A stretch of 64,000 nt of DNA from Bdellovibrionales bacterium (GTDB lineage: Bacteria > Bdellovibrionota > Bdellovibrionia > Bdellovibrionales > Bdellovibrionaceae). The DNA is taken from contig JAFEAQ010000011.1 in NCBI GenBank assembly GCA_018266295.1, forward strand, positions 372,001-436,000, in the 5' to 3' direction. The notes under the pieces were generated by a model that was given only the letters and a program-made list of their open reading frames with translations, was not told the DNA's origin and made no database searches. A program made the translations under genes and the position numbers. Shown here piece after piece: positions 29,312 to 35,115 of this stretch (the first letter of the stretch is position 1; each line of letters opens with the position of its first letter).

Positions 29312-30565
29312 CCATGTGGCTGTGAATGCGGCACTAAATTCGCCGAATCCCGGCCTGCTGTCGATAGACCTCTCGGTTATGATTAGCGCAGAGAACCCGG
29401 AGATTTTCTAGTTCATTGCCTCCTCCTGCCCAACGGGGCTGAATATGATCCGCCTGCAGATTCCACTGAGATCCGCAGATCTTGCCAGATTTTTGATCTT
29501 TATATTGGCAACACCCATCCCTTAATAGAACTTGGCGCTTAAGACTCTCGCAGATATTTTTGTTTGTCTCATCTTGAGTTTTCACTGGAACCGCGCCCTT
29601 CCTTTGACCCTTCACTGCTTTTTCCGCGGAACCTTTGGATCCTTGAGATCTGGACGCCTTTGTTCTTTGTTCAATGACTCTAACTGCGACGTACTCCAGA
29701 ACCTGATCCCATTCCCCACTTGGCAAGGCGGAGGACAACAATTCGCGCATAGTCTTCATCTTTTCCCACTGCTCTTTTGATAGAGTCACCTCGAGACGGA
29801 CCGACTCATTGGCCTGACAACTGATTTTCGGGCTCTCTTTAACTTCAATATTGAGCCTTTTACAGACAGCGACTTGAGTTTCAGCGAGTGTTTTGTATTT
29901 AATTGCCTCCACCATCGTCGCTTTGGCCTCGGTGGAGATTTTCTGCTCTTTGGCTTGGCGAAAAGATTTTTGTAAGAATGTAATTTGAGCCAGGGTAATT
30001 TCACCTTGATCAATACTCTCGATAACTGAAGGCACTTGCTGCGCGAGTCTCGCGGCATCGATCCGGCGCTGGGCACTTCCACCATCATAGCCCATACGCT
30101 CAGTGAGGTAGCTATACAAACTAGAATAGCCAAGTCTCAAAAATAGCCTTCGGCGATCAATCTCTGCAACATGCCGAAGGATTTCTTTAAGAGCTTCTTT
30201 TTCTTTTTTGATAAAGCTTAAAAGACTCTGATCCAAACTTTCATCTGAAAGATATTTCAAGCTCTTGTCTGACATAAAAACCTTATTCATAGCCGAACCT
30301 CCTCTTTGAAAAGGTTCTAACGTCAGTTTTAAATATCGATTTTTGAGATTTTATCAAAAGCGAAACGCTGTATGAAATGTCTATGAAAGGCCCAGTTATA
30401 CATCCTGCCCACCCCTATAAACCCTTGGTAATTATCTAAAAAGGAGGACCGAATAGCCTCTGAGAACAACCACTATATCCAAGATTAGAAATCGAAAAAC
30501 TACGTCAAACTATTTTTAAAAGATTCGTATTTCGGACCCTTAACCGGATTTCACAGCCATGTGGC
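29312..30565. repeat. Inverted 16-bp repeats flanking the HNH gene
   Basis: GCCATGTGGCTGTGAA at 29312-29327 and its inverted near copy at 30550-30565 (14 of 16 bases identical after reverse complement) bracket the HNH nuclease and about 290 non-coding bases upstream of it. The arrangement is compatible with a small mobile or once-mobile segment, but no target duplication is evident and no transposase is present. Confidence 0.45.
29334..30290 (-). CDS. HNH endonuclease
   Basis: About 318 residues with a GAGGAGG site. Residues 1-200 are helical and charged (ending in ...WDQVLEYVAVRVIEQRT), then a basic linker, and residues 245-310 form the HNH module: LLRDGCCQYKDQKSGKICGSQWNLQADHIQPRWAGGG with Cys pairs and the ADHI His, then NLRVLCANHNREVYR. 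This is the architecture of the DUF222-like/McrA-like HNH proteins that occur in several copies in Bdellovibrio genomes. A nuclease role is expected but the target is unknown. It lies between inverted repeats. Confidence 0.92.
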   Translation of the reverse strand: MNKVFMSDKSLKYLSDESLDQSLLSFIKKEKEALKEILRHVAEIDRRRLFLRLGYSSLYSYLTERMGYDGGSAQRRIDAARLAQQVPSVIESIDQGEITLAQITFLQKSFRQAKEQKISTEAKATMVEAIKYKTLAETQVAVCKRLNIEVKESPKISCQANESVRLEVTLSKEQWEKMKTMRELLSSALPSGEWDQVLEYVAVRVIEQRTKASRSQGSKGSAEKAVKGQRKGAVPVKTQDETNKNICESLKRQVLLRDGCCQYKDQKSGKICGSQWNLQADHIQPRWAGGGNELENLRVLCANHNREVYRQQAGIRRI

Positions 30566-31266: not shown

Positions 31267-31791
31267 CTACTTCTTATTGATTTTCATTTTAGCGTACTCG
31301 ATCCCCATTTTTGCCATGGCAAAAACGCCTTTTTCTTCGAGTTTCTTTTCAACTTCCTTAGCCTTGCGAAGGCCTGCTGCCACCGTGATCTGCGCCAAAG
31401 GATGGCCGACAGGAATATTTTCAAAGTTTCCGTCATTCACCCACTCTTCAGCGACATTCTCAGCCACCTCAAAAGCTTTTGGTACTTTTGCGCGAACGAG
31501 TTCACTGTAAGGAAATTCAATATGAATTTTCTTACGATTCATTTCATCAAAGCCCGATGTCTCGTCAATAGTTTCATCCGCTGTGTGAGCAGCCTCTTCA
31601 GCGTGCTCTGAAGCTTCATGAGCGTTGCGAACAGTTTCCTCAGTCTCATCGACGATCTCTTCGGCCATCTCTACAAGTTCCTCATGAGACTCTTCTTGAG
31701 TGTCTTCATGGATTTCTTCGTGAGTTTCCTCGCGGCCTGGACGGCGACGGGCTTTTTTCTTTTTAGATGCATAGTCTTTTACTGTTGGCAT
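31267..31791 (-). CDS. Acidic Glu/His-rich helical protein
   Basis: About 174 residues. A basic N-terminus (KKKKARRRPGRE) is followed by residues 20-80 made of near-repeats of Glu/His/Asp (THEEIHEDTQEESHEEL and AHEASEHAEEAAHTADE), then a folded-looking C-terminal part (IHIEFPYSELVRAKVPKAFEVAENVAEEWVND...). The repeat is probably a long amphipathic helix, and the His-Glu pattern could bind metal. I do not recognise the family. It lies 24 bases behind parA and six before bolA, so it belongs to that operon. Confidence 0.8.
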   Translation of the reverse strand: MPTVKDYASKKKKARRRPGREETHEEIHEDTQEESHEELVEMAEEIVDETEETVRNAHEASEHAEEAAHTADETIDETSGFDEMNRKKIHIEFPYSELVRAKVPKAFEVAENVAEEWVNDGNFENIPVGHPLAQITVAAGLRKAKEVEKKLEEKGVFAMAKMGIEYAKMKINKK

Positions 31792-31815: not shown

Positions 31816-32601
31816 TTACAATTTCATTTCCAACACTTCGCGAGTAACTAAGTCATAGTCCTCGCGCGCGTTGGACTTAGAGTGATAAATCGTCTTTCCC
31901 GTGCCGATGGTGTTTTTCACCTCGGTGGAAGTTCTTATATAGCTCTTCATCAGCAAATCCTCAAAGGAATCCATGCATTTCTGTAAAAGCTCATGGCTGA
32001 CCTTTTCTCGGCCATCAAAACGTGTGAACAGAATTTTCTCTGTCAAGTCGAGGTCAAAATCTTTCTTGATTTCGCGAAGCTCCTCGAGATGTTTTTCAAG
32101 CCCCATATAGGAAAAACGATCCGGATTTACAGGCAGAATCACCATATCGGAAGCCACCGTCACCGCCGTATTCGTCGCGCTGAGCGCCGGAGCCGTGTCG
32201 ATCAGGATCAAATCGTAGTTTTTACGAATGGTCTCAAGCGGGTTCTTCACCGCCTGGGACCAATTGCGATTGGAGTTCAAAAGCACACGGTCTAGCACTG
32301 AGTTATTGAGATTCGACGGAATCAAATCGATTTTGTCCGTTAACTTAACGACAGCCTCTTGAATCGTCGCTTTCTTTTCCACGATATCGAGCCAAACAGG
32401 TTTTTCTTCGGCCTCGTCGATATCCATACCGAGAGCAAAGGTCAGATTGGCCTGCTGATCCATATCGATGAACAAGACGCGTGCACCATACTGAACGGCA
32501 CCGAGGCCAATATTCATGGCTGTAGTGGTCTTTGCCACTCCGCCTTTCAGCATTTGCACAGAGATGATTTTATGTGGAAGGGTGTTTTTGGCTCTAGCCA
32601 T
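31816..32601 (-). CDS. ParA-family ATPase
   Basis: About 261 residues. The deviant Walker A KGGVAKTTTA (residues 19-28) has the signature lysine; FIDMDQQANLT and LILIDTAPALSATNTAV are the switch motifs, and VILPVNPDRFSYMGLEKHLEEL follows. Typical for chromosome- or cargo-positioning ATPases of the ParA/Soj/MinD class. No parB is adjacent, so it is an orphan, more like those that place protein complexes than the chromosomal parAB. AAGGAGATC ribosome binding site. First gene of a tight group ending in the VOC gene. Confidence 0.94.
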   Translation of the reverse strand: MARAKNTLPHKIISVQMLKGGVAKTTTAMNIGLGAVQYGARVLFIDMDQQANLTFALGMDIDEAEEKPVWLDIVEKKATIQEAVVKLTDKIDLIPSNLNNSVLDRVLLNSNRNWSQAVKNPLETIRKNYDLILIDTAPALSATNTAVTVASDMVILPVNPDRFSYMGLEKHLEELREIKKDFDLDLTEKILFTRFDGREKVSHELLQKCMDSFEDLLMKSYIRTSTEVKNTIGTGKTIYHSKSNAREDYDLVTREVLEMKL

Positions 32602-32662: not shown

Positions 32663-34681
32663 TTATTTAGTTTGTGATTTCTGCTCGAGTCCCTTTAAGA
32701 AGCTCGATACGAGGTCGTCACGCTCTTGTCCTGACACAGGACGTGCACCCATCGGATATTCCTTATAGAGCTTTTGCTGGATTTCCAAGAGGAATCTTGA
32801 CGCCGTCACAGGACGAACCACGCCGTGACGTTTGCGCTGCTGGCAACGGGACATCACAAGGCGTTTTTTAGCACGAGTGACACCCACGTAAAAAAGTCTG
32901 CGTTCTTCGTCGATATCCGAACCAAGAGTTTTGTGTGGAAGCAGATCTTCTTCAACTCCGGCCAAGATAACAACCGGGAATTCCAAGCCTTTGCTGGCGT
33001 GAAGAGTCATCAACTGCATTTTATTCGAATTATCCTCTTCATTGACGTCATCTCTAAGCATCATCGCATCGATGAAGGATTTCAAATTTTCAAGATCATA
33101 ACTGCGACGCCCCAAGTAGGCATCCAGAATGCGACCGACGATCTCTACGACTTGCCATTTTTTCTCGGCGACACTCGGATCTGCCGTGCCATTATAAATG
33201 AACTGGCGATAGCCCAAGAGTTGCAAGATCTCGATAAAGTGAGCTCCAGGGCTCGAACCGACTTTGTAATCTAAAATCTGCGATGGCAGCGCATGACAGA
33301 AATTGAGCAGATCATCAATCGCTTCACCGGTTTTGTCTTGGATTCCGGCCTCTTTCCACTGCTGGCAGGCTTCCATGAAGGTGACTTTATTCGTGAGCGT
33401 ATACTCGGTGAGTTTTTCAATGGTCCCCTCACCGATTCCACGCGGCGGAACATTGATGATTCGACGGAGCGAAACTTCATTCGGCGCGAGAGCCTGTTTA
33501 AGGTACGCCATGACGTCTTTGACTTCTTTACGGTCAAAGATCGATGTGCCACCCGTGATTGTGTAGGGAATATTCGCGCGACGGAGCGAGCTCTCGATCA
33601 AGCCCCCTTGGGTGTTTGATCGGTAAAGCACCGCGAAGTCTTTGTAAGTGTATCCTTGGCGCATGAAGTGCTGAACTTCGCTGACCACGAAATCACACTC
33701 ATCTTCTTCGCGCTCCAAAACGAAAACTTCAGGTAATTCACCGGTGTTTTGGGCGTTTTCAGCTCTGAGGACTTTGCCGTGACGGTTCTTATTTTGCGCG
33801 ATTGCCGCATTGGCCACCGCCAAAATCTCGGCACTCGAACGGTAATTACGTTCGAGCTTAATCACTTCGCAGCTTTTAAACTCTTTTGGAAAATTCAGAA
33901 TATTTTTTACTTCAGCTCCGCGCCAACCGTAAATCGACTGATCGTCGTCACCGACGGCCGTAATATTATTATGCGTTTTAACGATCTGATGGATCAACTC
34001 CATCTGCAGACGATTAGTATCTTGGAACTCATCCACCATGACTTGCGTAAATGAGTTCTGGATCTTCTCAAGGGTTTCAGGGTGCTGTTTGAAAAGCTCT
34101 AACGGCTTAATCAAAAGACCCTCAAAGTCCACGACGCCTAGAAGTTCTAACTTTTTGTTAAATTTTGGAGCCAGGGTTTCGACCATCTCATGATACTCAT
34201 CGAAGGCTTCCGTTTTATTGGCCATCCCTGTGCGATGATCATTAATCATGTTGAGAAGCTTATCGACATCGAATTTATCTTTGCCTGAGTTGGTAACGTC
34301 TTTCAGAAGTTCTTTGATGATGGCATTGCAATCGCTTTGATCAACAATACCGAAGTAAGGGCTGAGGCCTGCATGCTTATGGAAACGGCGGAGAATCTGC
34401 AAACCAAACGAGTGAAAGGTTCCGGCCCAGAGGCCCTTTTTGGTTTGCGATCCAACTTTGGCAGAAACACGGTGCTTAAGTTCCTTAGCGGCTTTATTCG
34501 TGAACGTGAGGACGCAGATCTCGTCGGCCTTTGCGATGTTATCCGCAATAAGGCGACCGGTTCTGGAAACCAGAACCGTTGTCTTGCCAGAACCAGCTCC
34601 CGCAAGAATGAGCAGCGGGCCAAAATCGTGCTCGACGGCTTTGACCTGCTCAGGATTGAGACCTTTTGTCCAATGACTCAT
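32663..34681 (-). CDS. UvrD/PcrA-family DNA helicase without C-terminal Tudor domain
   Basis: About 672 residues; a superfamily 1A 3'-5' helicase. Motifs: Walker A AGAGSGKTTVLVSR, Ia and Ic, DEFQDTNRLQ (Walker B), GDDDQSIYGWRGA, LERNYRSS, TLHASKGLEFPVVILAG and VGVTRAKKRLVM. The protein ends about 30 residues after the motor core in VSGQERDDLVSSFLKGLE, without the Tudor-like extension common in PcrA and UvrD. That extension seems to be on the preceding gene. The start codon overlaps the stop of that gene by one base (TAATG). Confidence 0.95.
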   Translation of the reverse strand: MSHWTKGLNPEQVKAVEHDFGPLLILAGAGSGKTTVLVSRTGRLIADNIAKADEICVLTFTNKAAKELKHRVSAKVGSQTKKGLWAGTFHSFGLQILRRFHKHAGLSPYFGIVDQSDCNAIIKELLKDVTNSGKDKFDVDKLLNMINDHRTGMANKTEAFDEYHEMVETLAPKFNKKLELLGVVDFEGLLIKPLELFKQHPETLEKIQNSFTQVMVDEFQDTNRLQMELIHQIVKTHNNITAVGDDDQSIYGWRGAEVKNILNFPKEFKSCEVIKLERNYRSSAEILAVANAAIAQNKNRHGKVLRAENAQNTGELPEVFVLEREEDECDFVVSEVQHFMRQGYTYKDFAVLYRSNTQGGLIESSLRRANIPYTITGGTSIFDRKEVKDVMAYLKQALAPNEVSLRRIINVPPRGIGEGTIEKLTEYTLTNKVTFMEACQQWKEAGIQDKTGEAIDDLLNFCHALPSQILDYKVGSSPGAHFIEILQLLGYRQFIYNGTADPSVAEKKWQVVEIVGRILDAYLGRRSYDLENLKSFIDAMMLRDDVNEEDNSNKMQLMTLHASKGLEFPVVILAGVEEDLLPHKTLGSDIDEERRLFYVGVTRAKKRLVMSRCQQRKRHGVVRPVTASRFLLEIQQKLYKEYPMGARPVSGQERDDLVSSFLKGLEQKSQTK

Positions 34682-35115
34682 TATTCGCGATTGTGAACGA
34701 GATTACGAACTTCGTCAGAGAAAACCACTTCTACTTTTTCAGGCTGAACACCACGAACGATGCCAAGACCGAATTTTGGGTGGTTGATTTTCTGGTTCAA
34801 AGAAAACTTAGCTTTAATAGAGTAATTCACTTCAGAAGCGCTTTCTTGAGCCTGCATCAACGCTTCGTATTCAGCATTATGTGAAGACCTACGCGCGCTT
34901 TCAGAACCTGCACGAGCACGAGTGACTTTAGCCGCGCCTGTTGCACCGCCAGCTTTAGGCAATGAATAAGATTTTTGGCTGCCACAAACTTCACATTTGA
35001 TTTTCGCAGTTTTAGAAGTCGTGTGCGCTAAGACGACATGGTAACGGTCGGCATTACACTTTTTGCAGAAAGTAAAAAATGATTTTGCGACTGGAGGTAA
35101 CTGGTTCACTGGCAT
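34681..35115 (-). CDS. Zinc-ribbon protein with helicase-type Tudor domain
   Basis: About 144 residues. Residues 17-48 form a four-cysteine zinc ribbon (FCKKCNADRYHVV ... KCEVCGSQKSYSL). A basic Ala/Ser-rich linker follows. Residues 103-144 read AKFSLNQKINHPKFGLGIVRG then EKVEVVFSDEVRNLVH, which matches the Tudor-like domain at the end of PcrA and UvrD ('GDKVxHKKFGxGxVxxV ... LxVxF ... VKxLL') that contacts RNA polymerase. Its ribosome binding site lies in the 3' end of the previous gene and its stop overlaps the helicase start. I infer a transcription-coupling partner of that helicase. Confidence 0.9.
   Translation of the reverse strand: MPVNQLPPVAKSFFTFCKKCNADRYHVVLAHTTSKTAKIKCEVCGSQKSYSLPKAGGATGAAKVTRARAGSESARRSSHNAEYEALMQAQESASEVNYSIKAKFSLNQKINHPKFGLGIVRGVQPEKVEVVFSDEVRNLVHNRE

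Follow-up and report, generated by a model that had tools for sequence, protein, structure and literature searches.

A small ribbon and Tudor protein of Bdellovibrionota as a probable link between transcription and genome upkeep

The polymerase-docking domain of the helicases PcrA and UvrD is the contested centre of a model of Mfd-independent transcription-coupled repair. This C-terminal Tudor domain of PcrA binds the helicase-interaction motif [VIL]DxxTGE[VIL][VILT], which occurs in the SI1 insert of the beta subunit of RNA polymerase (RNAP) and also in UvrB. The glutamate is critical at either site, that of the UvrB motif is required in B. subtilis, and UvrB competes for the Tudor domain of PcrA (PMC8318588). 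Five residues of the PcrA domain, H681, W684, F705, K712 and L714, are discussed for RNAP binding, and four of them (H681, W684, K712 and L714) were mutated in RNAP-binding tests, in which point mutations greatly reduced binding (PMC5397179). That a PcrA-like Tudor domain may be borrowed by another repair protein is already known from DinX (PMC6511836).

The window analysed here, i.e. the whole stretch of 64,000 nucleotides, comes from a member of the Bdellovibrionaceae and contains a small gene followed by a UvrD-family helicase gene (Table 1). The product of the small gene has 144 amino acids (aa) in which a basic linker joins a four-cysteine ribbon to a Tudor domain at the C-terminal end. 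An earlier note on this DNA had read the pair as a split transcription-repair coupling factor in which the small protein supplies the polymerase contact of the helicase. The comparison with relatives leads to a different picture: the small protein is probably a link between transcription and genome upkeep and not a detached fragment of the helicase encoded next to it.

Table 1 Features around the small gene, with positions in the window
Feature	Position	Strand	Basis
UvrD-family helicase, 672 aa, Rep-like type, without Tudor domain	32663..34681	(-)	Pfam UvrD_N and UvrD_C; TIGR, PDB, tree
TAATG stop/start overlap of small gene and helicase gene	34679..34683	(-)	sequence; one shared base
Gene of the ribbon and Tudor protein	34681..35115	(-)	ORF; phylum-wide conservation
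C-terminal Tudor domain, residues 95-144	34684..34833	(-)	profile-profile comparison, PDB profile matches, fold, residue conservation, PcrA alignment
N-terminal four-cysteine ribbon, residues 12-51, C17xxC20 ... C41xxC44	34963..35082	(-)	cysteine conservation; predicted sheet
Upstream conserved gene, 316 aa	35117..36067	(-)	neighbourhoods; AlphaFold; Foldseek

The small protein and its Tudor domain

All four cysteines of the ribbon are present in 48 of the 49 aligned members of the family, and the lone exception, the L054 member, is without the entire ribbon. This relative (L054:2509-2775) possesses a Tudor domain and a Lys-rich start, and its genome is also without a Rep-like helicase. In the model of the window protein the ribbon forms a four-stranded sheet (pLDDT >90) on which the two CxxC pairs sit, and alignment and model agree in placing these pairs on a fold of beta hairpins. 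The zinc ribbon recognised in the earlier note is borne out by these data, and binding of a metal, namely zinc, is predicted from the sequence. The linker is basic and variable, with a helix at residues 67-89 of the model. The mean pLDDT of the model is 84, with high values in both domains and low ones in the linker. Profile searches with the small protein gave no Pfam or NCBIfam family scoring over its cut-off, and the protein is absent from the open-licence literature searched. Alignment of the whole model with VIA-align mainly set residues 1-53 against Tudor/SH3-like barrels at Z <=6, which is too weak to be read.

The relationship of the tail was examined by profile-profile comparison (hhalign) of 15 small-protein tails with 16 PcrA/UvrD tails, 15 of them from the phylum together with that of E. 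coli UvrD. A probability of 96.7% (E 4.4e-10) was obtained; a control in which this tail was compared with an unrelated family gave 1.1%. All matches to E 0.1 in a PDB search with the family profile are UvrD C-terminal domains (7egt, 7egs, 6yi2), with E-values of 0.012-0.077 in one profile search and 0.0054-0.015 in another. Residues 95-140 are predicted to form a Tudor-like small beta barrel (pLDDT about 90 or more), for which Foldseek gave probabilities of 0.99-1.00 against Tudor domains; the C-terminal domain of T. thermophilus UvrD (7egt_B) matches with an rmsd of 1.0 angstrom over 38 columns at 32% identity. Profiles and model identify the tail as a homologue of the PcrA/UvrD Tudor domain, and the earlier reading of a helicase-type Tudor end on a separate protein is upheld. 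The small protein has no match to PF12073 (DUF3553); 6 of the 30 relatives searched give weak matches, the best with E 0.0015 and thus below the Pfam cut-off, and a search of the own genome for DUF3553 gave nothing above the cut-off.

With the PcrA numbering traced through the 5dma alignment, H112, F115, F132, R137 and L139 of the small protein align with H681, W684, F705, K712 and L714 of G. stearothermophilus PcrA. Four of these positions (H112, F115, F132 and L139) are invariant in all of the 49 aligned members, and either R or K occupies position 137 in all 49. The known contact residues on which a polymerase-binding role would depend are thus kept, and they suggest binding of RNAP by the small protein.

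The nearest relative of this Tudor domain (99.4%, profile-profile) is encoded in the same genome. It forms the C-terminal end of a protein of 181 aa (L081:5203-5748; C11, about 805.2-805.7 kb), whose long N-terminal part is rich in Lys, Ala and Pro and resembles histone H1. Homologues of this protein are widespread in the class, and its gene is flanked by genes of a Tex-like protein and an LpxD-like acyltransferase.

The neighbouring helicase, gene neighbourhoods and distribution

The helicase consists of UvrD_N and UvrD_C domains only, in agreement with the earlier note, which had found it without a Tudor end. It scores 547.8 bits for rep vs 547.5 bits for pcrA in TIGR and 401 bits for Rep vs 399 bits for PcrA in the PDB. 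A second helicase of the same genome, a PcrA of 757 aa with a Tudor tail (L080:1129-3402), has PcrA as its best PDB match (658 bits) and shares 39% identity with the 672-aa helicase; the two are different paralogues. A Tudor-bearing PcrA was found in 16 of 16 genomes checked. In a tree of 32 helicases, 17 Tudor-bearing proteins (including E. coli UvrD) and 15 Tudor-less ones (including E. coli Rep) are separated by a branch with a support of 97/96. The 672-aa helicase lies among the Tudor-less paralogues on the Rep side of this branch. It has the length of Rep (~670 aa) and no tail, but its position as sister of E. coli Rep is weakly supported (78/43). Because of its place in this branch it did not visibly shed the tail that is now seen on the small protein. 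A canonical Mfd (1179 aa, 1041 bits) is encoded elsewhere in the genome.

Among the 17 loci of the own family for which long flanks were sampled, 15 have the Rep-like helicase gene directly after the small gene, and the two exceptions (G003 and G015) have no Rep-like helicase at all. The gap between both genes ranges from -1 to 34 nt in the family and from 3 to 34 nt in the 14 family relatives checked, which is still operon-like. Translational coupling, as claimed earlier, fits the overlap in the window; this overlap is, however, peculiar to the own genome among these relatives. In other families the arrangement is looser: one or two genes intervene in f2, f10 and part of f6, with the helicase about 0.8-2 kb downstream of the small gene, in f4 the helicase is located elsewhere, and in part of the order (L047, L048 and L051) the small gene has no repair neighbour. 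The gene pair for which the earlier note had advised a search across Bdellovibrionota is therefore adjacent in the own family, but 1-2 kb apart or dispersed in other families.

In other classes the neighbour is uvrC (Pfam UvrC_RNaseH, 1.2e-47), which is divergent from the small gene. Across two families it adjoins the small gene directly at 17 of the 20 loci, and not at L119, L120 and L122. A gene of the uracil-DNA-glycosylase family is often found beyond uvrC. Upstream of the small gene at the uvrC-linked loci no LexA-like or other palindromic boxes were detected with the four patterns tried. Two branches of the phylum thus pair the small gene with different repair genes.

The most constant neighbour in the class is the 316-aa gene, a constant operon partner there, and the gene order of the class reads fumC - (LOG-type gene) - GNAT-fold gene - small gene. 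Its product has no Pfam match. The AlphaFold model (pLDDT 92, pTM 0.91) has GNAT acetyltransferases as best PDB matches in Foldseek (E 8.8e-5, TM about 0.65 on the target), and a GNAT-acetyltransferase-like fold is predicted. This protein was also considered as a partner of the Tudor domain via the helicase-interaction motif and rejected, TGE being present in 0 of 27 homologues. Downstream of the helicase a ParA-type ATPase gene (window 31816-32601) and a gene of a short acidic/coiled protein (31267-31791) are located, neither of which clustered with genes of the other sampled neighbourhoods. A further ORF at 29334-30290 possesses an HNH-like C-terminal motif (HIQPRWAGGGNELENLRVLCANHN).

Of 60 relatives, 53 conserve the small gene. 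Profile matches to its product were obtained in 137 of 144 class genomes and 208 of 223 good phylum genomes, values which overstate the ribbon protein, as matches with E ~1e-10 to 1e-19 mostly represent the separate Lys-rich Tudor protein. A clear match (E < 1e-25) exists in 87 of the 106 good class genomes. When the Rep-like helicase is counted at E < 1e-140 in the same 106 genomes, both genes occur in 79, the small gene only in 8, the helicase only in 7 and neither of them in 12. This is more often together than expected (Fisher p 1.6e-6), with a co-occurrence that is inflated by shared ancestry and by reduced genomes missing many genes; the association is real in counts but not obligatory. 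One scan of genome contigs yielded two close relatives only, and a plasmid scan yielded none.

These data bear on the split coupling factor, i.e. a polymerase-binding domain of the helicase that moved to a zinc-ribbon protein and serves the Rep-like helicase in trans. The tight operon of the Bdellovibrionaceae, the missing tail of the helicase and the co-occurrence of both genes speak for such a split, and the loss of linkage to helicases that the earlier note had counted against its proposal was not observed in the own family. However, its second counter-argument does apply: with the 757-aa PcrA the genome encodes a helicase with a Tudor domain at another locus, and like PcrAs exist throughout the genomes checked. 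The helicase falls with the Tudor-less paralogues and E. coli Rep on the far side of a well-supported branch, uvrC adjoins the small gene in other classes, and each gene is found in good genomes that lack the other. A docking motif in trans on the helicase itself (TGEL, residue 313) was tried and rejected, since orthologues do not conserve the TGE loop. On the grounds of the Tudor-bearing PcrA, the helicase tree and the uvrC linkage, we reject the small protein as the shed or split tail of its coupled helicase. With a canonical Mfd in the genome and no motor in the small protein, a split transcription-repair coupling factor in the wider sense is unlikely as well, and a polymerase contact supplied in trans to this helicase is quite improbable.

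Possible partners and function

The RpoB of the own genome carries the helicase-interaction motif as IDESTGEII, and a strict match is present in 6 of 8 phylum genomes with a near match in the other two. At the homologous loop the UvrB of the genome reads IDPLTGQVL, hence TGQ and not TGE; relatives have RGV, TGQ, LGE, RNE or RGK, so that the glutamate is missing in most of them. A second strong UvrB homologue (865 bits) exists beside the usual one in one relative (G018:C12:182873-184762). A scan of the own-genome DNA for the motif resulted in 5 matches vs 2 in a reversed control, of which rpoB alone is convincing. Because the motif is intact in RpoB and UvrB has TGQ for TGE, RNAP appears from these sequences as the likelier dock of the Tudor domain. 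However, the own PcrA also explains both the RpoB motif and conserved Tudor residues, so the motif is permissive and not specific evidence.

As best explanation, which we consider to have about an even chance of being right, the small protein would be an RNAP-docked adaptor for genome maintenance, serving DNA repair or conflict resolution. Its Tudor domain would dock on RNAP, with the helicase-interaction hairpin in SI1 of the beta subunit as the most probable site. At the transcription complex, the ribbon and the basic linker would touch either nucleic acid or a partner that is a helicase or takes part in repair, and genome-maintenance enzymes could thereby act where the polymerase stalls or collides. 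A natural candidate for the partner is the co-transcribed Rep-like helicase in Bdellovibrionaceae and nucleotide excision repair in the other classes. Polymerase binding is suggested by sequence comparison and the second partner by the gene neighbourhoods, and an effect on repair may be presumed. The adaptor is based on the Tudor homology, the conservation of the contact residues, the RpoB motif, the linkage to repair genes, the co-occurrence with the Rep-like helicase and the phylum-wide retention. Against it stand the most constant class neighbour, which is a GNAT-fold protein and not a repair gene, and the part of the order without a repair neighbour. A bolder version, to which we assign a rather doubtful standing, is an adaptor of the whole phylum that delivers the Rep-like helicase in one class or UvrC-dependent excision repair in the others in trans, which would add to Mfd and UvrD a third way of coupling genome maintenance to transcription.

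The divergent uvrC of the other classes can also be explained by an accessory of nucleotide excision repair, whose Tudor domain works on UvrB or UvrC and not on the polymerase. UvrB is a known Tudor partner (PMC8318588), and the closest PDB profile and fold matches include a UvrB-bound UvrD C-terminal domain (7egt). But the motif glutamate of UvrB is replaced in the own genome and in most relatives while that of RpoB is intact, and uvrC is not adjacent to the small gene in the own class, which makes such an accessory quite unlikely. Little credence is given to a nucleoid or general chromatin-type protein with a Tudor domain that is a generic peptide reader common to the Lys-rich, H1-like paralogue. 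The close match between both Tudor domains, the basic linker, the ribbon-less L054 relative which kept its Lys-rich start and the GNAT-like fold encoded upstream would fit to it; the PcrA-type contact residues, however, are stricter in the small protein than in the H1-like paralogue, whose aromatic is often leucine. Similarly improbable is a mere competitor that fills the helicase dock of the polymerase and restrains PcrA without recruiting anything. It would fit to the contact residues shared with PcrA, the lack of a catalytic domain and the competition of UvrB for the PcrA Tudor domain (PMC8318588), but leaves the conserved ribbon and the specific repair-gene neighbours unexplained.

With the adaptor as the preferred reading, an uncharacterised gene of most members of a predatory phylum gains a testable function. 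A phylum that keeps the dock on a motor-free protein, beside a Tudor-less helicase or uvrC, is moreover a natural experiment on the role of the dock without a helicase and on delivery in trans.

Comparison with known systems

The families and the open literature searched contain no phylum-wide, motor-free protein of ribbon and Tudor domain with linkage to either uvrC or a helicase lacking the Tudor domain. The closest described domain is the C-terminal Tudor domain of PcrA/UvrD (PDB 5dma, 6yi2, 7egs, 7egt), which is homologous and has the same contact residues and HPxFGxG signature. In contrast to it, the domain of the small protein is carried by a ribbon protein of its own that has no motor, and it has neither the glycine-rich loop insertion nor the motif of the last strand (KYARLE). 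The mycobacterial DinX (PMC6511836) and DUF3553 (PF12073) are likewise cases of a PcrA-like Tudor domain borrowed by a genome-maintenance protein, the fusion partner being a Y-family polymerase in DinX and a ribbon in the small protein. The 672-aa helicase has its length, the absence of a tail and the Rep-side position in the tree in common with E. coli Rep, but is about equally similar to PcrA.

The four-cysteine zinc ribbon of the Elf1/ELOF1 type is also located on a small protein. Its profile similarity to the ribbon described here is weak (E 0.00028-0.00078) and falls below the Pfam cut-off, and common descent is unsupported. The RNAP-interaction domains of CarD/CdnL and Mfd are, like the PcrA-type Tudor domain, small Tudor-like modules which bind the beta subunit, and Mfd-type and PcrA-type domains have no apparent sequence homology (PMC5397179). 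The domains of CarD/CdnL and Mfd bind to the beta1 region and not to SI1. An Mfd-type coupling factor combines a translocase, an RNAP-interaction domain and a UvrB-like module, whereas the small protein of Bdellovibrionota has no motor.
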